Assembly (NCBI RefSeq): GCF_002261225.1
Contig: NZ_NEVM01000005.1
Coordinates: 1,984,001-2,048,000 of the forward strand
Origin: Bordetella genomosp. 10
GTDB taxonomy: Bacteria; Pseudomonadota; Gammaproteobacteria; Burkholderiales; Burkholderiaceae_B
Length of the DNA: 64,000 nt
Direction of reading: 5' to 3'
Part shown: positions 2,814 to 13,878 of the stretch, piece after piece
Layout: each line of letters opens with the position of its first letter
How positions within the stretch are numbered: the first letter of the stretch is position 1
The notes under the pieces: generated by a model
What the model was told of the DNA's origin: nothing
The model's input: only the letters and a program-made list of their open reading frames with translations
The model's database searches: none
Made by a program: the position numbers and the translations under genes

Positions 2814-3578
2814 TCACGCCTTGTTGAAACGCGCCAGGAAGGATTGCGTGGCCGCCTGCGCCGGGTTGTCGATGACCTGTTCGGCCGGCCCCGCCTCGAC
2901 CACCACGCCGTCGCGCATGAAGATCACCTGGTCGGCGACCTCGCGCGCGAAGGCGATTTCGTGGGTCACGAGCAGCATGGTCATGCCGTCCTCCGCCAGC
3001 GCCTTGATGACGGCCAGCACCTCGCCGACCAGCTCGGGATCCAACGCCGAGGTCGCCTCGTCGAACAGCATGACGGACGGGCGCAGGGCCAGGGCGCGCG
3101 CGATCGCCACGCGCTGCTTCTGCCCGCCGGACAGCATGTCCGGATAGACGTCCGCCTTCGCCTCCAGGCCCACGCGCGTCAGCAGCTCCATCGCCAGCGC
3201 GTGCGCCCGCGTCTTCGGGATCTTCTGCACCGTCACCGGGCCTTCCATGACGTTCTGGACGGTGGTCATGTGCGGGAACAGGTTGAAGTGCTGGAACACC
3301 ATGCCGGTGGTCGCGCGATAGCTGGCGAGCTCTTTCTCCGGCATGCGATGGCCGCGGGGGCTGTCGAAGTCCATGCTGCGCTCGCCCACCCGTATCCGGC
3401 CGCCGTCGGGCATCGTCAGCAGGTTGATGCAGCGGAGCAGCGTCGACTTGCCCGAGCCGGACGGGCCTATCATCGCCACCACCGAACCCCTGTCCACCTG
3501 CAACGAGATGTCCTTCAGCACCACGTGATCGCCGAACCGCTTGCTGAGGTTGTTGATCTCGATCATCGGGTCGCTCAT
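2814..3578 (-). CDS. Polar amino-acid ABC transporter, ATP-binding subunit
   Basis: A 254-residue ATPase of the HisP/GlnQ type. Walker [10 protein letters not shown] is at 38-46, the signature L-S-G-G-Q-K-Q-R-V is near 155, Walker B V-M-L-F-D-E-A-T-S-A-L-D follows, and the switch His lies in V-T-H-E. It would energise import through the permease encoded just upstream, whose stop codon overlaps its ATG by 4 bases. With the receptor at 4348..5181 it forms a complete importer downstream of the racemase and the FAD/[2Fe-2S] dehydrogenase, suggesting uptake of their substrate. Confidence 0.9.
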   Translation of the reverse strand: MSDPMIEINNLSKRFGDHVVLKDISLQVDRGSVVAMIGPSGSGKSTLLRCINLLTMPDGGRIRVGERSMDFDSPRGHRMPEKELASYRATTGMVFQHFNLFPHMTTVQNVMEGPVTVQKIPKTRAHALAMELLTRVGLEAKADVYPDMLSGGQKQRVAIARALALRPSVMLFDEATSALDPELVGEVLAVIKALAEDGMTMLLVTHEIAFAREVADQVIFMRDGVVVEAGPAEQVIDNPAQAATQSFLARFNKA

Positions 3579-4249
3579 GACGCGTTCCTGTCCTGTTTCG
3601 CCAGACGGTTTTCGATGCGCTTGGACCATAGCGTGGCCGGGAACAGCACGATGAAATAGCAGATGGCCGTGATGGTGTAGAGCTCCAGCGGGCGATAGGA
3701 ATCGTGCGCCGCGGATTGGGCCTGGTACAGCAGGTCCGGCACGGCGATGACCGACAGCAGCGACGTGTTCTTCAACTGCATGATGGATTGGCTCATCAGG
3801 GGCGGCACCATGCGCCGGAAAGCCTGCGGCAGGATGATGCGGCTCATGACCTGGTCGCGCCGCATGCCCATGGCCAGGCCGGCCTCCGTCTGCCCCCAAT
3901 CCACGCCCAGGATGCCCGCGCGCACGATCTCCGAATAGAAGGCGCCGCCGTACAGCGTCAACGACAATGCCGCGGCGGCGGTGGGCGACATCTCGATGTT
4001 CGTCAGGACGGGCAGCGCGTAGTAGAACCAGATCAGTTGCACGAGCACCGGCGTGCAGCGGAAGATTTCCACGTAAGCGCGCAGGATGCCCGCGATGTAG
4101 CGCGGCGCGCGCACGCGCCCGATGCCGACGGCCACGCCTACCGCCAGGCCCGCCGCCACCACGATGATCGTGTACACCACGGTATAGGCCAGGCCGCTCA
4201 GCAATAGCTTGTGATAGACCCAGATGGCGCCAAAGTCCCACTGATACAC
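3575..4249 (-). CDS. Polar amino-acid ABC transporter, permease subunit
   Basis: A 224-residue HisM/GlnP-type permease. Hydrophobic helices lie near 15-45, 60-85, 90-110 and 185-210, and the EAA-like loop (E-A-G-L-A-M-G-M-R-R near 125) is the contact for the ATPase. The early motif R-C-T-P-V-L-V-Q-L is typical of the amino-acid branch (R-G-T-P-x-L-x-Q). The system has one permease gene and probably works as a homodimer. It follows the receptor gene after about 98 bases and overlaps the ATPase gene by 4 bases. Confidence 0.88.
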   Translation of the reverse strand: MYQWDFGAIWVYHKLLLSGLAYTVVYTIIVVAAGLAVGVAVGIGRVRAPRYIAGILRAYVEIFRCTPVLVQLIWFYYALPVLTNIEMSPTAAAALSLTLYGGAFYSEIVRAGILGVDWGQTEAGLAMGMRRDQVMSRIILPQAFRRMVPPLMSQSIMQLKNTSLLSVIAVPDLLYQAQSAAHDSYRPLELYTITAICYFIVLFPATLWSKRIENRLAKQDRNAS

Positions 4250-4347
4250 AACCGCTCCTTGAAATTCATGCGATGCCCGCGCGCCCGCTGGGATGGCGGG
4301 CGGCGGGCGCCGGGTCGAATGCCCCGGCGGCTAACCGTGGCAGGATG

Positions 4348-5181
4348 CTAGAACGTGGCTTCCTTGGGGAACAGCTTGGGATCGACGCCCGCCAGCTTCT
4401 GCATGTTGTCGATGATGGTCTGCTTGATCACGCCCTTGGAACGCTCGGCGTTCAGCCATTGATTGACGTATTCGGTGAAGGCCGGGTCGGGCTCCTTCTG
4501 CACGCCGATGGCGGTCGGCGCGGTGGCGGCCGGCGTCGGAATCACCAGGTGGCCCAGCCGCGGCGCCTTGGACAGCACGGTCACGGCCAGCAGGATCACC
4601 AGCACCTGCGCGTCCACGCGGCCGGTCTGCAAGGCCAGCGTGGCGTCGCCCGAGGTCTCGAAGCGGTGCAGCGCGGCCTTGGTCAGGGTCTGCGTGGCGA
4701 AGGTGTCCTGGTTCGACCCCTGGTCGACCGACAGGCGCACTTCGGGCTTGTTGACGTCATCCCAGGTATTGGGATCGAAACCTTTCTTCGCCACCAGCGT
4801 GAACGTATTCTGGAACAGCGTATCGGTGAAGCCCACCGTTTTCTTGCGCTGCTCGGTGGGCGCCAGGCCGAACATGCAGTCGATCTTGTTCGATTGCAGG
4901 TCCAGCACGGCGTTGCCCCACGTGGTGTCGATGGCCTGCAGCTTGACGCCGAGCGACTCGGCCAACTGGTTGGCGAAGTCGACGCAGAACCCTTGCCATT
5001 GGCCGGTCGCCACCGACTTGACGTAGTACGGCGCCGCGCCCGCGATGAAGCCGGTGCGCAATACCTTGGTGCGCTTGACGCGCGCCATGGTCGATTCATT
5101 CTGGGCGAACGCCGGCATGGAAATCATCGAGCCGAGGCCGAACGCGCACGTGGCCGAAACAAAACTTCTGCGTGTAATCAC
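4348..5181 (-). CDS. Polar amino-acid ABC transporter, periplasmic substrate-binding protein
   Basis: A 277-residue SBP_bac_3 family receptor. The GTG start at 5181 is preferred because AGGAGA lies 6 bases upstream. It gives an N-terminus with a twin arginine (T-R-R-S-F-V) followed by a hydrophobic stretch and an A-F-A-Q cleavage site, so Tat or Sec export is possible. Core features include G-F-C-V-D-F-A-N-Q-L and D-C-M-F-G-L-A-P-T-E-Q-R-K. It should deliver an amino acid or derivative to the permease and ATPase downstream. The ligand cannot be named from sequence. Confidence 0.88.
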   Translation of the reverse strand: MITRRSFVSATCAFGLGSMISMPAFAQNESTMARVKRTKVLRTGFIAGAAPYYVKSVATGQWQGFCVDFANQLAESLGVKLQAIDTTWGNAVLDLQSNKIDCMFGLAPTEQRKKTVGFTDTLFQNTFTLVAKKGFDPNTWDDVNKPEVRLSVDQGSNQDTFATQTLTKAALHRFETSGDATLALQTGRVDAQVLVILLAVTVLSKAPRLGHLVIPTPAATAPTAIGVQKEPDPAFTEYVNQWLNAERSKGVIKQTIIDNMQKLAGVDPKLFPKEATF

Positions 5182-5457
5182 GGCAGTCTCCTGGATACAG
5201 AACATAGCGCTGGAAACGCGTCGGACAGCCCGCCCCGCGCGGCCGGGCCTGCCCATCGGGAGGAATTCTAATCGCGCCCACCCTGCTCCCAGGACCGGCG
5301 GTTCAGGAATTCGCCAGATTTCGGGTGCCGTGGGCAAAAAGCGGGGCCGAATATGGGACACGCTTATTTTTCGGCATGCATCAATGCGGGCAAACCCTGA
5401 AACCGGTGAACGCGGTTGCTCGGCCGATTGCGGATCCGACGACTACAGTCCGGGCTG

Positions 5458-6231
5458 CTATTCCGCTTGCAGTCCCGGTTGGAGTCCCGACTGCGGTGCC
5501 GGCTGCAATCCCGACTGCAACCGTATCGCGTCGATGAACCACCGCAGCATGCCCACCACGTCGAAGACGGGCAGCCCGGTCGCTTCGCGGACCGCCGCCG
5601 CGAAAGGCGGCATATTGGTGCATTCGAAGACGATGGCGCCAACCTCGGGATGGCTGGCGGCCAGCGCGCGCGCCGCCGCCACCATTTCCCGCTGGAGGAC
5701 GGCGAAATCGGCTTCCGAAGGAGATGCCCGGTCGGTGAACACGCGCCGGAAAAGACTGTCTTCCGGCATGCCCGCGATCGGCGTCGCGCCGTCCACGCCG
5801 ACGGCGGCAAGGTGGGCGCCGGTCAGGGCGGTCCGGTTGATGGTGAGTATGCCCACGCGCTTGCCCGCCGGCAGCATGCGCTCGACCATGGGAACCTGTA
5901 GCAGCGAGCTGGTCGCGACCGGAACGGACAGCCTGGCGCTCAACTCCCGTTGGAACAGGGCGAGGAAACCGCAACTGGTCGTGATGCCGCGCACCCCCAT
6001 GTCGATCAATTCCTGCGCCGCGTCGACGAAAGGATCGAGCAGGCCGCGGCCGCGGTCCTCGATGACCCGCGCCGGCGTCGCGCCGCGCACGATCTTGAAT
6101 TGCAGCGGCACGGACCAGGTGGCGGCGTTGCCGATTTCACCCGGGAAGCGCGTGAAGCGGGTGTCCAGCATGAGCACGCCCAGCGTGAGGCCGTGGACGA
6201 CGGGGCGGACGTGGTTCGGATCGTGGGTCAT
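5458..6231 (-). CDS. Aspartate/glutamate (hydantoin) racemase-family protein
   Basis: A 257-residue member of the Asp/Glu/hydantoin racemase superfamily. The two catalytic cysteines of cofactor-independent racemases are at Cys87 (T-T-S-C-G-F) and Cys204 (F-E-C-T-N-M-P-P-F). Racemase, isomerase or arylmalonate-decarboxylase-type chemistry is possible; two cysteines favour racemisation. The C-terminus ends in an imperfect Gln-Ser-Gly-Leu/Gln-Pro-Gly-Leu repeat encoded by a degenerate short DNA repeat (about 5450-5525). It lies between the FAD/[2Fe-2S] dehydrogenase genes and an amino-acid importer, so it may interconvert stereoisomers of the transported substrate. The ATG at 6231 is used; the frame stays open upstream through a 15-bp tandem repeat without another ATG. 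Confidence 0.82.
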   Translation of the reverse strand: MTHDPNHVRPVVHGLTLGVLMLDTRFTRFPGEIGNAATWSVPLQFKIVRGATPARVIEDRGRGLLDPFVDAAQELIDMGVRGITTSCGFLALFQRELSARLSVPVATSSLLQVPMVERMLPAGKRVGILTINRTALTGAHLAAVGVDGATPIAGMPEDSLFRRVFTDRASPSEADFAVLQREMVAAARALAASHPEVGAIVFECTNMPPFAAAVREATGLPVFDVVGMLRWFIDAIRLQSGLQPAPQSGLQPGLQAE

Positions 6232-6281
6232 GGTGGACGATGCTCGTGGGTGGTCTGACGGAGGGTGGTCTGGCGGGGCGT

Positions 6282-6348
6282 GGCCTGCTGGTGGATGATC
6301 TGCTGGTGAGTGATCTGCTGGTGAGTGATCTGCTAGTGGATGATCTGT
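6282..6348. repeat. 15-bp tandem repeat upstream of the racemase gene
   Basis: About four and a half units of a 15-base sequence, best copies GATCTGCTGGTGAGT at 6297-6311 and 6312-6326, with one- to three-base variants on both sides. It lies in the 164-base gap between the FAD subunit gene and the racemase gene. On the minus strand it could encode repeats of Ala-Asp-His-Ser-Pro in frame with the racemase, but no start codon context supports translation. Confidence 0.75.
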
Positions 6349-6395
6349 CTGCTGTTCGATGCGGGCATGGCCGCCGGGCGCGGGCGGGACTGGCC

Positions 6396-7910
6396 TCAAA
6401 GATCCTCCGCGCCCGCCAGCGCCGTGACGGAAACGGGCCGGATCGGCCATCGGGGTATCGCGCCGTCGATGTCCGCCAGCGTCAGGACGCCGTCCTCGTC
6501 CGGTGCGGCCATGCTCGCCGCGTGAGCGCAGAAACGGCCCTGGCACAAGCCCATGCCGACGCGGCCGACCAGCCGCAGCTCGCGCGCCGAATGCAGGTCC
6601 TGCTCCGCCAACGCGCGGCGGGTAACGCCTTCGCAGCGGCAGATGACGGTGTGGGCATCTATTGGAGGCATGGATGCCAGCGCCGGGGCGAACAGGCGCC
6701 GGAGCGACTTTTGGAACGTGGCTGCCGCGCCTTGGGGCGCATTCTCGTCCGCCGACGCGGGCTTGCCCGCCGTCGCCGACGATGACGGCGCACCGGCGTC
6801 CAGCGTCGCCGAGCCATGATGAGATGGCCGCCCGTTCAATCGGCTCATGACCATGGCGGCCACGCGCCGTCCTTCGGTCAACGCCGCGTCCGCCCCCAGC
6901 ACCTCATTGCAATCGCCCGCCCTGGCGATGACGATGCCGTGCACATCCCCGGCCGGAATGCCGCGATCGTTGGCGACCAGCCCGCCATGCAACACCAGCA
7001 GGTCAACCTCATAGTCCCGCTCGCGCCCCCGCCAATCACGAGTCCGCACACGCAACGCACCCGCGCCACCGGCTGCATTGGCTGCATTGGCTGCATTGGC
7101 CGCATTGGCTGCGTCCGATGCACCGGCGGCACCGGCCACGCCCATCTCACCGGCGATACCCGCCACACCGCCCAGGCTCACGGCAACCACCGCCGTCGCC
7201 GTGCGATACGGCACTTGTGCCGCGCGCAAGCGGCGGAAGTAGCCGGCCGCCTCCAGCAACTGCCGGGGCCCCGCCGCCAGCCCGAACACCGCCCCGGGCC
7301 GCGTCCACAGATTGCGAAATAACGCCGCCGCCTCCAGCACGGCCACCGGGGCATTCCCCATCGCCGCCAATTGCGCCCCCAGCGCCAACGGCAAGGGACC
7401 GTTGCCCGCGATCAGGATGCGGCCGCGCGGCGCCTGGCCGCTTTCCTTCAACTGCACCTGAAGCCCGCCCGCCGTCACGACGCCGGGCAATTCCCAGCCC
7501 GGCACATGCGGCGCCCGCTCCGTGGCGCCCGTGGCGAAGATGACGGCCCGCGGCCGCGCCAGCTTCACCGCCCCGGCCTCGCGGCTATCGATCATGCAAA
7601 CGCCGTCGCCATCGATGCCCAGGAAGACCGCCGACGTCAGCACGCGGATGCGATCCGCCAAACGCGCCAGTTCCCGCTGCAACGCGGCCCAGTTCTTCTT
7701 GTGCCGCGCCGGCATCGGCGCCGCGCAGGGACCGCCGTCGTGGGCGGCGCGATGAATGGCGCCGCCGGCATGGGGACGCTGCTCGACCAGCAGGACGCGC
7801 GCCCCGCGCGTCGCGGCCTCTATCGCCGCGCTGACGCCGGCCGGACCGGCGCCCACCACCAGAAGGTCACAGCAGGCGGACTGCGCCAGGGCCGCGGATG
7901 ACATCGGCAT
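6396..7910 (-). CDS. FAD/NAD(P)-binding dehydrogenase subunit with BFD-like [2Fe-2S] domain (opine oxidase A/HcnB type)
   Basis: A 504-residue protein. The FAD site G-A-G-P-A-G is at 20-25, a second dinucleotide fold appears near I-L-I-A-G-N-G-P-L, and a C-terminal BFD-like domain holds four cysteines: Cys424 and Cys426 (C-R-C-E-G) and Cys456 and Cys461 (C-Q-G-R-F-C). This matches the large subunit of HcnB, opine/nopaline oxidase and D-hydroxyproline dehydrogenase complexes. Partners are the small [2Fe-2S] protein 17 bases upstream and the DAO-type subunit before it. A 9-bp tandem repeat in the middle encodes Asn-Ala-Ala units, an unusual low-complexity insertion. The complex would oxidise an amino acid or secondary amine and feed electrons to the respiratory chain. 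Confidence 0.85.
   Translation of the reverse strand: MPMSSAALAQSACCDLLVVGAGPAGVSAAIEAATRGARVLLVEQRPHAGGAIHRAAHDGGPCAAPMPARHKKNWAALQRELARLADRIRVLTSAVFLGIDGDGVCMIDSREAGAVKLARPRAVIFATGATERAPHVPGWELPGVVTAGGLQVQLKESGQAPRGRILIAGNGPLPLALGAQLAAMGNAPVAVLEAAALFRNLWTRPGAVFGLAAGPRQLLEAAGYFRRLRAAQVPYRTATAVVAVSLGGVAGIAGEMGVAGAAGASDAANAANAANAANAAGGAGALRVRTRDWRGRERDYEVDLLVLHGGLVANDRGIPAGDVHGIVIARAGDCNEVLGADAALTEGRRVAAMVMSRLNGRPSHHGSATLDAGAPSSSATAGKPASADENAPQGAAATFQKSLRRLFAPALASMPPIDAHTVICRCEGVTRRALAEQDLHSARELRLVGRVGMGLCQGRFCAHAASMAAPDEDGVLTLADIDGAIPRWPIRPVSVTALAGAEDL
7071..7115. repeat. In-frame 9-bp tandem repeat inside the FAD subunit gene
   Basis: Five consecutive 9-base units: three exact copies of GGCTGCATT, then GGCCGCATT and GGCTGCGTC. 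They encode Ala-Asn/Asp-Ala repeats on the minus strand within an Ala/Gly-rich linker. Length changes by whole units would keep the reading frame. Confidence 0.9.
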
Positions 7911-7927
7911 GGTCTTCCCCCGCCCGC

Positions 7928-8170
7928 TCAAAACGCGCCCGGCGCGACCACCGCGCCCGCCCGCGCCAAGGTCAGGCAGGACTCCACGGCCGCCCCGCCG
8001 TCCACCGACACCAGGCAGCCCTGGCATTGCCCGATGCCGCAGAAATACCGCGCCCGCTGCCCGCCCGCCGCCGGCCCGAAATCCTCGACCTCGGCGCGGC
8101 GCAAGGCCAACGCCAGCGTTTCGCCGTCGCGGAAGGAAATGGCGCGGCCATTCCAATAAAAATGCATCAT
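7928..8170 (-). CDS. Small [2Fe-2S] ferredoxin-type subunit (HcnA/opine oxidase small-subunit type)
   Basis: An 80-residue protein with the plant-ferredoxin cysteine pattern: Cys44, Cys49 and Cys52 (C-G-I-G-Q-C-Q-G-C) plus Cys65. It matches the N-terminal [2Fe-2S] domain of sarcosine-oxidase alpha and stand-alone HcnA-like subunits. Its first ATG overlaps the stop of the upstream DAO subunit (ATGA), so it is co-translated. It should carry electrons between the two flavoprotein subunits encoded on either side. Confidence 0.88.
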   Translation of the reverse strand: MMHFYWNGRAISFRDGETLALALRRAEVEDFGPAAGGQRARYFCGIGQCQGCLVSVDGGAAVESCLTLARAGAVVAPGAF

Positions 8171-9366
8171 GACGACGCTCCCGCCAAGGCCTCGCCCGCC
8201 GCCGCCCTGGCGAAGCGCGCGGGCGACAAGGCCTCGATATCCAGGCTGCCCGGCCGCCCCAGCACGATCTCGGCCGCCAGCTTGCCCATCAAGGGTCCGA
8301 GACAGATGCCATCGCCCTCGAAACCGGTGGCGATGGCCAGCCCGCCGATACCCGGATGCCGCCCGACGATGGGCAGTCCATCCACGCTCGCCGTCCGCAC
8401 GCCGGAGAACGTGCGGATCACCCGCCGGCGCGCCAGCGGAGGATAGGCGTCCAGGGCCTCGCGCAAGATGGTGGCGACATGCCGCACGGTGGTCTCCCGG
8501 TCGGCCAGGCCTTCCTCGCGCGTCCCGCCGATCAGCAATTGCCCCGTATTCAAGGGATCGATGACCAAGCTCACGGGATTGCGCCGGGATGCGTCGGCGC
8601 TGCGCTTGGCGGCCAGGTAGGCCGCCGACATCAGCGGTCCGGCAAAGGCCGGCACATTGTCAGTGGCCCGGTCCGTGATCACGATCTGCCCCTTGCGCGG
8701 CACCAGGATCTCGCCCAACCCGGCCAGCGCCGTCGAGCCCAGCCCGGCGGCGATCAAGACGGCATCGCCGCCGAAGGTCCCGGCATCGGTCTCCACGCCG
8801 ACGGCGCGTCCCCCCTCGACCTTGATCGCGCGCGCCGCCGCATGGCGGACGATATGCGCGGCGGACCGCTTGAGCATGCGGTCGACGATCTGGTAGCCCA
8901 GCGCATGGCCGTCGTCCGGCACGGCAAGCGCTCCGACGATGGCGGGCGACACGCCGGGAACGCAAGCCCCGAACGCCGCTCCGCTCAAGCGCTCCACCCG
9001 CACGCCGGCGCTTTCCAGATCGCGGCCGTGCAGGGCCATGAGTTCGGCCTCGGCCTCGTTGCGCGCGAAAAGAAAGGTGGGACGCTGCTGGAACAGGCCG
9101 CGCAGCAAGCCGTCGCGGGTCAGTTCGACATACAGGTCCCGCGCGTTGCGGGCGATATTCATCAGGAAACCGGGCTTCTTGCTGCCCACCGACACCAGCC
9201 CGTCGGAAGCGCCCGAGGCCCCGGCCGAGGGCGTGCCGGCATCCAGCACGGTCACCGCGCAGCCGGCCTGCCGCAGGAAATACGCGGCGGACGCGCCGAC
9301 GATGCCCGCGCCCACCACAAGGACGCGGAAGTCGCCGCCCGTGGGTGCTGCTGCCCCTGTATCCAT
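8167..9366 (-). CDS. FAD-dependent DAO-family oxidoreductase subunit (opine oxidase B/HcnC type)
   Basis: A 399-residue D-amino-acid-oxidase-fold flavoprotein with G-A-G-I-V-G at 19-24 and a C-terminal G-F-E-G-D-G-I-C-L-G-P-L-M-G signature of the glycine/sarcosine oxidase group. It is the substrate-oxidising subunit and the first gene of the minus-strand operon: this gene, [2Fe-2S] subunit, FAD subunit, racemase, ABC importer. That order equals HcnC-HcnA-HcnB. The ATG at 9366 is taken because the Rossmann motif follows at the usual distance; the ribosome-binding site is weak. Candidate substrates are opines, D-amino acids or hydroxyproline, which the sequence alone does not separate. Confidence 0.87.
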   Translation of the reverse strand: MDTGAAAPTGGDFRVLVVGAGIVGASAAYFLRQAGCAVTVLDAGTPSAGASGASDGLVSVGSKKPGFLMNIARNARDLYVELTRDGLLRGLFQQRPTFLFARNEAEAELMALHGRDLESAGVRVERLSGAAFGACVPGVSPAIVGALAVPDDGHALGYQIVDRMLKRSAAHIVRHAAARAIKVEGGRAVGVETDAGTFGGDAVLIAAGLGSTALAGLGEILVPRKGQIVITDRATDNVPAFAGPLMSAAYLAAKRSADASRRNPVSLVIDPLNTGQLLIGGTREEGLADRETTVRHVATILREALDAYPPLARRRVIRTFSGVRTASVDGLPIVGRHPGIGGLAIATGFEGDGICLGPLMGKLAAEIVLGRPGSLDIEALSPARFARAAAGEALAGASS

Positions 9367-9676
9367 GACCGAAAACCCGCCCCCGATGACCCAGGAAAGC
9401 CTGCCCGACCGCGGGCCGTCCTCCCTCTTGCTCCAAGGCGCACAACTTACACGATTTCGGCAGCCGCTTCGCGGCGGCGGGCGTGGCGGCACTGTGGCGG
9501 CGGCGTGGCGAAGTTCAGACGGCCCGATCGCGTCCGGCGGGGATTTCCCTAGCTTGCTCGCCCCTCCGCGCGACGACTAATCTAAATAACAACATGATCA
9601 TATCGCTATGCGATACGACAATAGCTCTTATTCCAGATCGCCTGCCGCCCGCAGGCCCCCCCTCCCGGAGTCCCAA
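9367..9676. other. Divergent promoter region between the dehydrogenase operon and the ureohydrolase gene
   Basis: About 310 bases separate the DAO subunit start from the preferred ureohydrolase start. The left part (to about 9570) is GC-rich with no recognisable gene. The right part is AT-rich (about 9575-9640) and holds the palindrome at 9601..9615, so both divergent promoters probably lie here. I see no conserved RNA. Confidence 0.6.
9601..9615. promoter_or_regulatory. Palindrome TATCGCTATGCGATA, candidate IclR operator
   Basis: A perfect 6-3-6 inverted repeat (TATCGC-TAT-GCGATA) before the ureohydrolase. Its centre CGCTATGCG resembles two direct copies before the IclR gene (CGTTATGCG at 13006-13014, CGCTATGCT at 13018-13026). 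I infer that the local IclR protein binds all three. An in-frame ATG lies inside the palindrome, one reason to prefer the downstream start. Confidence 0.5.
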
Positions 9677-10630
9677 TTGCAGCCGTCCGACCACCCTGTC
9701 TTCTCCCCCGTCGCGGGATTCATGGGCCTGCCCGCCAGCCGCTCCCCCGACGCCGGCGTGCCCCGGGCCTGCGTGGTGGGCATCCCCTTCGATTGCGGCA
9801 CGCATCCCTTCCGCGTCGGCTCGCGCCAGGGCCCGGACGCCATCCGCGAACAATCGCGCCTGCTGCGTCCCTTCGACCTGTTCCGCCGCGCGGGCGTCGA
9901 CAATCCCTCGGCCTTCCTGCGCGCGGTGGACCTGGGCAACGTCGTCTGCCAGCCGGGCGATACCGATTACTCCTACCCCCGCATCGAAGCCGCCATCGCG
10001 CAGGTGCTGGACAGCGGCGCCATCCCCATCTCCATGGGCGGCGACGGGGCCGTGACGCTGCCGCAGTTGCGCGCCGTCTCCCGCCGCCATCCCGGCTTCG
10101 TGGTGCTGCACATCGACTCGCACACCGACACCTATCCCATTCCCGGCTACAACACCGCCACCACCTTCACCCGCGCCGCGGAGGAGTCCCTGCTGGACGT
10201 GGGCGCGAGCTACCACGTCGGAACGCGGGGCCAGTCCTTCATGGGCGGCGTCATCGAGTACGGCCGCGAGGTGGGCTACACCGTGGTGCCCTTCGACGAG
10301 TTCATGGCGGACCGGGGCGCCGTCGTCGAGCGCATCCGCGCCGGCATCGGCGACCGTCCCGTCTACCTGTGCTTCGACATGGACATCTTCGATCCCTCCT
10401 GCGCGCCCGGCGTCTGCACTCCCGAATGGGGCGGCCTGTCGCCGCGCGAAGGCCTGGACCTGCTGCGCAGCCTCTCGGGACTGAACTACGTGGCGTTCGA
10501 CGTCAACACCGTTTCGCCGCCGCAGGACGTGCAGGGCGCCACCGCGTTCCTGGCGGCGACCGTGCTCCAGGAATGCTGCGTCCTGGCCGCCGCCGCGGTC
10601 CAGGCGTATCCACAGGGCCGGCCCGCCTGA
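9677..10630 (+). CDS. Ureohydrolase (agmatinase/arginase) family protein with altered active site
   Basis: From a TTG with GGAG 6 bases upstream the protein has 317 residues; an in-frame ATG at 9608 would add 23. The arginase fold is clear: H-I-D-S-H-T-D-T-Y at 145-153 and C-F-D-M-D-I-F-D-P at 232-240 supply most ligands of the binuclear manganese centre. Two key positions differ. The canonical G-G-D-H is G-G-D-G (Gly124), removing one metal ligand, and the guanidinium-binding Glu of the D-V-x-E-V-x-P region is Thr278 (D-V-N-T-V-S-P). It is therefore either a ureohydrolase with an unusual metal site or one acting on another C-N bond. It lies between an opine-oxidase-like operon and a second amino-acid importer. 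Confidence 0.8.
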   Translation: MQPSDHPVFSPVAGFMGLPASRSPDAGVPRACVVGIPFDCGTHPFRVGSRQGPDAIREQSRLLRPFDLFRRAGVDNPSAFLRAVDLGNVVCQPGDTDYSYPRIEAAIAQVLDSGAIPISMGGDGAVTLPQLRAVSRRHPGFVVLHIDSHTDTYPIPGYNTATTFTRAAEESLLDVGASYHVGTRGQSFMGGVIEYGREVGYTVVPFDEFMADRGAVVERIRAGIGDRPVYLCFDMDIFDPSCAPGVCTPEWGGLSPREGLDLLRSLSGLNYVAFDVNTVSPPQDVQGATAFLAATVLQECCVLAAAAVQAYPQGRPA

Positions 10631-10667
10631 AGCGCCGGCGCCATCCACACACACAAGGGGAATGCTC

Positions 10668-11453
10668 ATGATGTTCAAGACGATCGCCGCCGGCCTGATG
10701 CTCGCCGGTCTGCTGTTGCAGCCCGCCGCCGCGCGCACGCTGGACGAGGTGCGCGCCGACGGCACGCTCAAGGTGGTGACCACCGCGTCCTCGCCGCCGC
10801 ACGGTTTCAAGAACCCGGCCTCCAACCAGTTGGAGGGCATCATGGTCGACGTGGCCGCCGGCGTGGCCAAGCGCCTCAAGCTCAAGGCCGCCTATACCGA
10901 GGTCCCCTTCTCCGGCCTGATTCCCACCCTGACTTCCGGCCGCGCCGACCTGATGTCCGGCCCCCTGTTCATCACCCCGGAACGCGCCAAGGTGGTCGAC
11001 TTCTCCGTTCCCGTCTACGAATGGGGCGAAGGCGTGGTCGTCTCCGACAAGGCCGCCAAGCCGTACACGAAGTTCGAGGACATGCAGGGCAAGCGGGTGG
11101 GCGTGCTGGTGGACTCGGTGCAGTTCAACATGATCAAGGACATGCCCGGCACCAAGGTGTCGACCTATCCCGACTACGTCACGCTCATCGCCGACGTGCG
11201 CGCCGGCCGCATCGACCTGGGCGTGGTGGATCCCCCGAGCATCATCTACCAGATCAAGAGCAAGGGCATCTCCGGCGTGAAGCTGGACACCGCCTACCAG
11301 CCCCAGAAGAAATGGCAGGTCGGCATGGCGGTCGACAAGGGCAATACGGCGCTGCTGCAAGCCGTCAACCAGGCCCTGGGCGAGATGAAAAGCAGCGGCG
11401 AGATGGCCGAGATCGGACGCAAGTGGGGCGTGTCCGACCTGCTGGCCAAGTAA
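10668..11453 (+). CDS. Polar amino-acid ABC transporter, periplasmic substrate-binding protein (second system)
   Basis: A 261-residue SBP_bac_3 receptor with a Sec signal peptide (about 1-22, ending A-A-A-R). Family patterns include [22 protein letters not shown] near 85-100, and the R-A-K-V-V-D-F-S ligand-site region. ATG at 10668 is favoured because AAGGGG lies 7 bases upstream, while the ATG at 10662 abuts it. It begins a three-gene importer (receptor, permease, ATPase) after the ureohydrolase. It is not closely similar to the receptor at 4348..5181, so the locus has two distinct importers, perhaps for different ligands of one pathway. Confidence 0.87.
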
Positions 11454-11480: not shown

Positions 11481-12173
11481 ATGACCCTCGACATCTTGCG
11501 CATGTACCTCTCGCCGCTGGCCGAAGGCGCGACCTGGACGCTGGCGCTGTTCTTCTGTTCGGCCTTCCTGGCGGTGGCGCTGGGGCTGCTGGTGTGCCTC
11601 TGTCGCATGTCGCGCTCGCCGGTGGCCAGCCGGCTGGCGCGCGGCTACATCGAAATCATCCGGGGCACGCCGCTGTTGCTGCAGTTGTTCTACATCTACT
11701 ACGGTCTGCCCCAGATGGGCGTCGTCATCGACGGCTTCGTGGCCGGCGTGCTGGGGCTGACGCTGAACTTCGGCGCCTACCTGGCCGAACTGTTCCGCAG
11801 CGGCATCCAGTCCGTCGACGCCGGCCAGTACGAAGCGGCGCGCGCGCTGGGCCTGAACCGGCGGCAGCGCCTGCATCGCGTCGTGCTGCCGCAGGCCTTG
11901 CGCACGGTATTTCCCGCGCTGGGCAACTATGCGCTGGTACTGGTCAAGGAAACCTCGCTGGTGGCGGTGATCAGCGTCTACGAATTGATGCGCGCGGGCG
12001 AAATGCTGGCCGGCGCCACCTTCCAGGCATTGACCGTCTACACGCTGGTGGGACTGATCTACTTCGCCATGTGCAGCGCCCTGTCCTATCTGTTCCGCCG
12101 CTCCGAGAAACGGCTGACGGTGCCCGGCTACTGGAGCGGCGCGGGCGAGAACCACGACATCAGCAAGGCATGA
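11481..12173 (+). CDS. Polar amino-acid ABC transporter, permease subunit (second system)
   Basis: A 230-residue HisM/GlnP-type permease with the R-G-T-P-L-L-L-Q-L motif near 60 and an EAA loop ([11 protein letters not shown]) near 120. About five hydrophobic helices are visible. An AGGAG site lies 8 bases before the ATG. The C-terminal TGA overlaps the start of the ATPase gene (ATGA), giving a compact operon with the receptor upstream. Confidence 0.88.
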
Positions 12174-12934
12174 ACATGGATGCAAGGCATGCGGGCGCAA
12201 GCGTCCCGATGATCACGCTGAGCGAAGTCAGCAAATGGTACGGCGCGCAGCAGGTGCTGCACGACGTATCGCTGGAGGTGCGCGCGGGCGATCGGCTCAT
12301 CCTGTGCGGGCCCTCGGGCTCCGGCAAGTCGACGACGATACGGCTGATCAACCGGCTGGAGGAACACCAGCGCGGCCGCATCGTGGTCGACGGCATCGAG
12401 CTCGGCGACGACGTGTCCAGCGTCGAGCGCATTCGCGCCGAAGTGGGCATGGTGTTCCAGCACTTCAACCTTTTCCCGCACCTGACGGTCCTGGACAACT
12501 GCACGCTCGCGCCCCTGCTGGTCAAGCGCGTGCCGCCCGCCCAGGCGCGCGAGCGGGCCATGCAGTACCTGGAGCGCGTGCGCATCCCGCAGCTTGCCGA
12601 AAAATTCCCCGGCGAGATCTCCGGCGGCCAGAAGCAGCGCGTGGCGATCGCCCGCGCCCTGTGCATGCAGCCCAAGGTCATGCTGTTCGACGAACCGACG
12701 TCGGCGCTGGACCCGGAGATGGTCAAGGAGGTGCTGGACACCATGGTCGAACTGGCGCGCGACGGCATGACCATGATCTGCGTCACGCACGAAATGGGAT
12801 TCGCCCGGGAAGTCGGCGACCGCGTCGTTTTCATGGACCAGGGAAGAGTGGTGGAGATGGACAGCCCCGAACGGTTCTTCCAGTCGCCATCGACCGAGCG
12901 GGCGCGCGCCTTCCTCGGACAGATATTGGGATAG
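12170..12934 (+). CDS. Polar amino-acid ABC transporter, ATP-binding subunit (second system)
   Basis: A 254-residue GlnQ-type ATPase with Walker [10 protein letters not shown] near 46-54, signature S-G-G-Q-K-Q-R-V near 160, Walker [13 protein letters not shown] and C-V-T-H-E. The start overlaps the permease stop by 4 bases; an internal ATG two codons later is also possible. It completes the second importer of the locus. A strong GC hairpin follows the stop. Confidence 0.9.
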
Positions 12935-13050: not shown

Positions 13051-13878
13051 ATGTCCGTCGCGTCGCTCGAAGATTCCCCCCTGTTCGTCTCCGCCCTGGC
13101 GCGCGGCATTTCCCTGCTGCGCGCGTTCAGCGAAAGCAGCCCCGCCATGACGCTGCCGGAACTGGCCCAGGCGACGGGACTGACCAAGAGCGCGGTGCAG
13201 CGCTTCGCCCACACCTTGTGGACCCTGGGCTACCTGCGCAAGGATCCGGCCAGCAAGAAATTCTCGCTGGCGCCCTTGTCGCTCGAACTCGGCATGCGCT
13301 ACACCCAGACCAGCGCGCTGGTGCTGGGCGGCAATCCCTTCCTGCATTCGCTGAACCGCACCAGCCAGGAAACCTGCAGCCTGGCCGAGCCCGACGGCAC
13401 CGACATGGTCTACGTGGCGCGCTTCGCCACGCACAAGCAGATGTTCGTCCATATGCCGGTGGGCATGCGCCTGCCGATGTTCTGCACCGCCGCCGGCCGC
13501 GCCGTGCTGTCGCGCCTGGAGCCGGCGCGCGCGCGCGGCCTGCTGGAACGCAGCCGGCGCGTGGCGTATACGCCCTCCACCATCACCGGCATCGACCGCC
13601 TGATGGAGGAGCTGGAATTCACCCGGCACCACGGCTATGCGCGGTCCGACGGCGAGTTCTATCCCGGCGACATCACCATCAGCGCCCCGGTGATGGACGC
13701 CGGCGATACGCCGGTGGGCGCCGTCAATGTGTCGGTGCCGTCCAGCCGCTGGTCCTTCGCGGAAGCGCAGGCCGTGTTCGGTCCCCAGGTATTGGAAACC
13801 GCGCACGCCATCCGGGCATCGCGGACGCTGGGACGCATGCATCCCTACTACGACATGGCCGCGCCGCTTCCCGCCTGA
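13051..13878 (+). CDS. IclR-family transcriptional regulator
   Basis: A 275-residue IclR protein. The N-terminal winged helix (about 15-75) includes L-P-E-L-A-Q-A-T-G-L-T-K-S-A-V-Q-R-F, and the C-terminal GAF-like effector domain contains the conserved C-T-A-A-G-R-A-V-L-S and S-A-P-V-M-D-A regions. The ATG at 13051 is preferred because the candidate operator repeats lie just upstream; an earlier ATG at 12988 would place them inside the gene. No good ribosome-binding site is visible. It is the only regulator in the 2.8-13.9 kb amino-acid locus and probably controls both divergent operons in response to a pathway intermediate. Confidence 0.85.
   Translation: MSVASLEDSPLFVSALARGISLLRAFSESSPAMTLPELAQATGLTKSAVQRFAHTLWTLGYLRKDPASKKFSLAPLSLELGMRYTQTSALVLGGNPFLHSLNRTSQETCSLAEPDGTDMVYVARFATHKQMFVHMPVGMRLPMFCTAAGRAVLSRLEPARARGLLERSRRVAYTPSTITGIDRLMEELEFTRHHGYARSDGEFYPGDITISAPVMDAGDTPVGAVNVSVPSSRWSFAEAQAVFGPQVLETAHAIRASRTLGRMHPYYDMAAPLPA

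Follow-up and report, generated by a model that had tools for sequence, protein, structure and literature searches.

The gene considered here lies at positions 9677 to 10630 of the window, the 64,000-nucleotide stretch of Bordetella genomosp. 10 DNA that was analyzed (contig NZ_NEVM01000005.1, positions 1,984,001 to 2,048,000). Alignments and a tree place its product in an uncharacterized clade of the ureohydrolase superfamily, distinct and with strong support, in which a metal-binding His is replaced by Gly124 and the guanidinium-binding Glu by Thr278. The fold is already known, as is most of the metal site; what is new is the residue set and, probably, the substrate class. We favor, with fair confidence, the prediction that the protein is an active, metal-dependent C-N hydrolase with a non-guanidine substrate. 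Because three residues used for splitting guanidines are replaced while five of the six metal ligands are kept, this substrate is probably some other imported nitrogen compound. The reading draws on the predicted fold, the five ligands, the occurrence of the three replacements within one clade, purifying selection, and linkage to a polar amino-acid importer.

The gene itself is as follows:
9677..10630, forward strand: ureohydrolase-fold protein of the GGDG/NTV clade (317 residues, TTG start, AlphaFold2 mean predicted local distance difference test (pLDDT) 94.6)

The translation has no internal stop and contains the motifs S-M-G-G-D-G-A (with G124), H-I-D-S-H-T-D (145-151), F-D-M-D-I-F-D (233-239) and D-V-N-T-V (275-279, with T278). 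A GGAG lies six bases ahead of the TTG start at 9677, and close homologues share the length that this start gives; a longer alternative, an ATG at 9608 inside a conserved intergenic palindrome, is unlikely. The protein has both marks of the superfamily, an arginase-family profile (Pfam PF00491 Arginase, 7.2e-71) and an alpha/beta fold, the AlphaFold2 model being a confident ureohydrolase fold that matches guanidinopropionase and proclavaminate amidinohydrolase best among known structures. Of the proteins on record, the closest comes from Achromobacter aloeverae and is 98% identical over 95% of the query. The gene is under purifying selection, its ratio of nonsynonymous to synonymous substitution rates (dN/dS) being 0.10-0.26. 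Sequencing error, frameshift and pseudogene are excluded by this ratio, by the open frame, and by the same Gly in 121 of 121 and in 291 alignment rows.

Residue equivalences were taken from HMMER alignments to guanidinopropionase, guanidinobutyrase, proclavaminate amidinohydrolase and E. coli agmatinase. In these, Gly124 aligns with the His of GGDH, Thr278 with the Glu of D-V-x-E, and Thr160 with the His of H-G-T-P-F. The first two assignments had been made in the initial annotation, which also named what would undo them, a His and a Glu at shifted but equivalent positions. Translation and alignments bear the assignments out: the alignments are gap-free inside and beside the motifs of positions 124 and 278, no His or Glu stands one or two positions from either, and a shifted equivalent is thereby excluded. 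The statement that all other ligands are present holds for the five metal ligands, but a third loss, that of the catalytic His at Thr160, was overlooked; also missed were the Cys40/His43 loop, His180, and associations with M20 genes, a regulator and a palindrome. The positions concerned, with counts from the alignments described below, are:
9803..9805, forward strand: His43, in a C-G-T-H-P-F-R loop that is one residue longer (H in 278 of 291 Gly124 rows; column gapped in 122 of 124 His rows)
10046..10048, forward strand: Gly124, in place of the Mn-A ligand His (E. coli agmatinase His126), by alignment (G in 121 of 121 rows)
10115..10129, forward strand: Asp147, His149 and Asp151, retained metal ligands (289, 290 and 290 of 291 Gly124 rows)
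10154..10156, forward strand: Thr160, where E. coli agmatinase has the catalytic His163 (H in none of the 291 Gly124 rows and in all 124 His rows)
10214..10216, forward strand: His180, clade-specific, with Gln in the compared relatives (H in 289 of the 291 Gly124 rows; Q in all 124 His rows and in the aligned PDB chains)
10376..10384, forward strand: Asp234 and Asp236, retained metal ligands (290 of 291 each)
10508..10510, forward strand: Thr278, where E. coli agmatinase has the guanidinium-binding Glu274 (T in 287 of the 291 Gly124 rows; E in all 124 His rows)

E. coli agmatinase, in the available portion of its description, binds Mn-A through His126, Asp149, Asp153 and Asp230 and Mn-B through Asp149, His151, Asp230 and Asp232, and its weakly bound metal is held by His126 (PMC8125230). 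Asp147, His149 and Asp151 of the window protein correspond to Asp149, His151 and Asp153 of this enzyme. Ureohydrolases have six metal ligands, two His and four Asp; the window protein retains five, comprising the whole Mn-B site and three of the four Mn-A ligands. It lacks both residues expected of an agmatinase or guanidino-acid hydrolase, the guanidinium Glu and the catalytic His, each of which is found in 0 of the 291 Gly124 rows. In E. coli agmatinase the E274A change leaves 1-2% of activity and H163F leaves 3-5%, according to the same portion of that source (PMC8125230). By alignment, therefore, the window protein has neither residue whose loss nearly abolishes guanidino hydrolysis there, and the non-guanidino substrate first proposed gains support as the most likely option. 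The loss of the catalytic His strengthens this case more than the loss of the metal ligand does. The replacements show in comparison with known relatives: His126, His163 and Glu274 of E. coli SpeB (PDB 7lol, 7lox) are all replaced, as are the same three residues of proclavaminate amidinohydrolase (PDB 1gq6), and no clavam gene was recognized among the annotated window genes. Where guanidinopropionase and guanidinobutyrase of Pseudomonas aeruginosa (PDB 3nip, 3nio) have His124, His160, Glu278 and Gln180, the window protein has Gly, Thr, Thr and His.

How many metals are bound is a separate matter. The H126N change costs E. coli agmatinase half of its activity and H151N all of it, in the part of that report available (PMC7313459). 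The titles of two structures of Trypanosoma cruzi formiminoglutamase (PDB 4mxr, 4myn), the latter reading "Trypanosoma cruzi formiminoglutamase N114H variant with Mn2+2", imply a natural Asn114 where the variant has His, in an enzyme that still holds Mn2; from these titles we read Asn114 as the Mn-A position. This enzyme is distant from the window protein (23% identity) and acts on a formimino group. Since H126N is half-active, and in view of the formiminoglutamase titles, a single metal cannot be concluded from the missing Mn-A His by itself. Thus the single-metal center initially suggested is not established; Mn-B is intact, and Mn-A has three of its four ligands.

The combination of Gly124 and Thr278 is not peculiar to the window. 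In a first alignment G occupies position 124 in 121 of 121 rows, the window protein included, and T occupies position 278 in 117 (the others being two gaps, one P and one G). A larger alignment of 415 rows combines three queries (the window-protein search P0001, the divergent member L058 and the canonical protein L062), the best 120 listed hits of each, and 66 locus proteins, with duplicates between the sets. It contains G/T in 287 rows, G with another residue or a gap in 4, H/E in 124, and no further combination, the split of 291 and 124 rows being made on residue 124 itself. Three of the four Gly124 rows without Thr278 (P0073, P0078, P0080) look truncated or frame-disrupted; the fourth (P0009) has P. 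Because the pairing recurs across rows, neither sequencing error nor chance substitution fits. The 124 H/E rows form a single narrow set, 120 listed L062 hits plus L062-L065, and clade-specific columns are defined relative to that set; an intermediate is possible outside the sampled rows. Further marks of the clade are Cys40 (278 of 291), Met235, Phe238, Trp251 and Asn277. Of the 34 clade-specific columns listed, 23 by our count fall within segments that we judged afterwards, by our own choice, to line the active site (36-47, 119-128, 145-162, 178-186, 230-252 and 273-281).

In a maximum-likelihood tree of 68 rows, midpoint-rooted and with long branches among distant rows (L093, HutG-like and arginase-like rows), the 40 GGDG rows make up one side of a branch with 100/100 support. 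Consequently, Gly124 and Thr278 do define a clade, as the initial annotation had asked. This branch sits within a larger group (95/96) that also holds agmatinase- and guanidinopropionase-like rows. Among loci from a genome collection, 62 of 66 carry the Gly/Thr pattern and 4 are canonical, at 36-39% identity; by record titles all 62 are from Proteobacteria, in a scan reaching close relatives only. Since each of eight clade-bearing genomes has one GGDG copy among its other PF00491 matches, the clade copy sits beside canonical relatives (29 matches: 8 GGDG, 16 GGDH, 2 GGGH of the HutG type, 1 GGDD and 2 whose motif was unread). Other PF00491 proteins depart from the canonical motifs in different ways. 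L088 and L091 represent another subfamily, with GGDH and Glu kept and G-L-S-S-P at the catalytic His motif, and L093 is a very divergent protein with the motifs G-G-D-D, D-S-H-H-D and V-E-V-D-K and a very long tree branch.

Clade members are named in databases as agmatinase (many), as guanidinobutyrase or proclavaminate amidinohydrolase (some), or just as "arginase family protein". The window protein falls under every curated NCBI family cut-off; its best scores are with two agmatinase models, 192.1 against a cut-off of 302 bits and 152.6 against 174.3 bits. The latter model is the agmatinase equivalog TIGR01230, with which six further clade proteins score 151.3-162.9 bits and two canonical controls score 200.6 and 193.7 bits, above the cut-off. 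Since the residues that enable the guanidino reaction are missing from the examined clade rows, annotation of the clade as agmatinase points to systematic misannotation in Proteobacteria. No study of the clade was found in the literature searched, which comprised open-licence papers.

The gene is the first of an operon that continues with an importer and a regulator; 27-35 bases separate each of the first four genes from the next:
10662..11453, forward strand: solute-binding protein of a polar amino-acid ATP-binding cassette (ABC) importer (SBP_bac_3; domain matches)
11481..12173, forward strand: ABC importer permease, HEQRo type (domain matches)
12209..12934, forward strand: ABC importer ATPase (tblastn, 67% to the L030 ATPase; reading frame)
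13051..13878, forward strand: IclR-family regulator (domains, start candidates)

Neighbors were counted by tblastn within 5.2 kb in 63 clade loci, that is, the 62 above and the window. All three importer parts occur on the same strand in 42 of these, and L044 also has all three, by Pfam; the remaining 20 loci include L032 with two of the three parts, several short contigs, and different settings. Thus the importer that the initial annotation had noted beside the gene does recur. The solute-binding protein does not point to one ligand, since its nearest PDB relatives include glutamine-binding, arginine-binding and further amino-acid-binding proteins as well as ancestral designs. IclR relatives occur in 34 of the 63 loci, one of them a weak match (L043), and an M20 amidase gene in 11.

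In the proposed mechanism, a metal in the intact B site (Asp147, His149, Asp234 and Asp236) would activate water against an amide, ureido or amidine-like C-N bond. Any second metal would occupy an A site made of Asp147, Asp151, Asp234 and a water or other donor. Where other members hold guanidinium, Thr278, Asn277 and the C-G-T-H-P-F-R loop (Cys40-His43) would accommodate a group that is neutral or anionic. The substrate would be an imported amino-acid-like compound, which some hosts may process with an M20 amidase encoded in the same operon. His43 lies in the beta1-alpha1 loop and is absent from 13 of the 291 rows, being substituted in 11 and lost by truncation in 2. In the available portion of its description, the same loop of E. 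coli agmatinase places Thr46/Ser47 roughly 6 A from agmatine's amino end (PMC8125230). Because of this location, and because 11 rows have other residues, His43 is more likely to be a substrate contact than a metal ligand; a role as replacement ligand is disfavored on the same grounds. A different single-metal design is known from the histone-deacetylase-like amidohydrolases, which have a tandem catalytic His and a single Zn site. In the window protein there is no His inside the G-G-D-G motif or in the residues beside it; deacetylase folds are not among the 50 structural entries listed, which excludes nothing.

Several observations weigh against a non-guanidine hydrolase. The ligand missing here is the one whose loss in H126N leaves half of the E. 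coli activity (PMC7313459), and the agmatinase of D. radiodurans has Asn at the catalytic His, in the available portion of PMC8125230. Single residue losses are, because of these two cases, no proof of a new substrate. Moreover, the canonical control L062 also falls under the cut-off of the second agmatinase model (284.7 against 302 bits), and the full importer was not found by tblastn in 21 of the 63 loci, several of them on short contigs, the other neighbors being diverse. The strongest alternative, which we consider unlikely, is that the protein is still a urea-releasing amidinohydrolase which binds the guanidino group differently, with His43, His180 or Asn277 replacing the lost residues. 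The nesting of the clade in a branch with agmatinase- and guanidinopropionase-like proteins, the best structural matches, the newly conserved His43 and His180, and the partly active H126N enzyme would all be consistent with it. However, the guanidinium Glu and the catalytic His are both lost, and the loss of either alone leaves 1-5% of activity in E. coli agmatinase (PMC8125230); His43 is not universal, and the eight genomes examined keep separate canonical relatives.

A second alternative, less probable still, is a ureohydrolase pseudoenzyme of the MetCb type. MetCb, the inactive subunit of metformin hydrolase MetCaCb (PDB 8x3g), is like the clade a non-canonical arginase-family protein with a changed active site, and the three losses in the clade would agree with such a fate; in the part of the report available, MetCb and other arginase-family proteins without a binuclear center exist (PMC11271267). 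MetCb, however, no longer binds metal, owing to changed coordinating residues, and works as a partner (PMC11271267), whereas the clade keeps five of the six ligands in 289-290 of 291 rows. Nor is a partner evident: no second ureohydrolase was found in any of the 66 fetched loci (tblastn with P0001, E 1e-10), a search that a distant type could escape, and on a Bosea plasmid, which is not part of that set, some 6.6 kb separate the clade gene from a canonical speB.

The non-guanidine hydrolase remains the preferred reading. Three annotated plasmid records of the clade, with motifs checked, place the gene in catabolic surroundings. On the Bosea plasmid (L096, 4852-8747) the clade gene shares one base with a flavin reductase gene and is adjoined by an LLM flavin oxidoreductase and a creatininase-family gene, possibly a cluster for oxidative degradation of nitrogen compounds. 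The Methylobacterium plasmid has M28, M20 and dipeptidase genes together with a solA-annotated oxidase, and its M20 and clade genes overlap by four bases; the Caballeronia plasmid has gamma-glutamyltransferase-family, RidA, aminotransferase and aldehyde dehydrogenase genes. An alphaproteobacterial order recurs in L034, L035, L059 and L060: LysR (opposite strand), ATPase, solute-binding protein, permease, M20 and clade gene. Elsewhere, TctC receptor genes lie directly upstream (L039, L048, L054), a gamma-glutamyltranspeptidase gene overlaps the predicted start (L046), or gluconolactonase-type and papain-type genes are neighbors (L036). The M20 neighbor is nearest to succinyl-diaminopimelate desuccinylases and a thiamine pyrophosphate (TPP) neighbor to benzoylformate decarboxylases; neither fixes the substrate.

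On the other side of the gene, an operon at 5458-9492 on the reverse strand encodes DAO, 2Fe-2S, flavin adenine dinucleotide (FAD) oxidoreductase (with a weak, sub-cut-off Fer2_BFD match) and Asp/Glu-racemase-like proteins; we take it to resemble opine oxidase or hydroxyproline dehydrogenase operons. Beyond it lies a second amino-acid importer, at 2814-5361. The first gene of the divergent operon and the palindrome between the two operons are:
8167..9492, reverse strand: DAO-type FAD oxidase, first gene of the divergent opine-oxidase-like operon, a window-specific neighbor (a search of 5.2 kb around the gene found no relative in any of the 62 further clade loci)
9601..9615, no strand assigned: palindrome TATCG-N5-CGATA, intergenic, probable operator (present in each of the 33 loci at 65% protein identity or more and in none of the remaining 30 clade loci)

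That the clade enzyme cleaves the product of the DAO/FAD oxidase in an opine pathway is very improbable: the divergent arrangement, the intervening palindrome, a DAO-family gene about 1.1 kb downstream in L055 and the solA-annotated Methylobacterium oxidase would fit it, but relatives of the window's DAO, FAD-oxidoreductase and racemase-like genes were found near the clade gene in 1 of 63 loci, the window itself. This count excludes the divergent operon as a general partner and weakens that half of the context initially proposed; because no other locus has it, the operon should not be used to name the substrate.

In all 33 loci with 65% protein identity or more (the window, L001-L031 and L061, from Achromobacter, Bordetella, Schauerella, Caballeronia and Paraburkholderia), the palindrome stands at the predicted start or a short way upstream of it and agrees at 9 or 10 of its 10 positions; the pattern was read from some of the loci later counted. 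It is found in 0 of 30 other clade loci, two of them Alcaligenaceae (L044, L054). As background, there are 4 further occurrences in 630,695 bases of the same loci, and the pattern turns up in 42 of 6600 shuffled upstream regions, the shuffles preserving base composition only. Of the 33 loci, 22 have another copy 1.0-1.25 kb upstream of the predicted start, where it precedes iclR. The palindrome is a probable IclR-family operator, to which the IclR protein would bind. A scan for sigma-70-type promoters found no promoter-like site in 9400-9750.

Taken at its most specific, the proposal is that the clade is a previously unrecognized branch with one firmly bound metal, at site B, which hydrolyzes a non-amidine C-N bond, for example an amide or ureido bond in an amino-acid derivative that the cell imports; this version we hold only tentatively. 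If it is true, three replacements within one clade would have extended the family beyond guanidino and formimino substrates. The missing residues point to a family of enzymes whose active site has been rebuilt and whose substrate is open to discovery by assay. Should that substrate be an amide or ureido compound, it would show how a two-metal guanidino hydrolase can be converted to another kind of C-N hydrolase.
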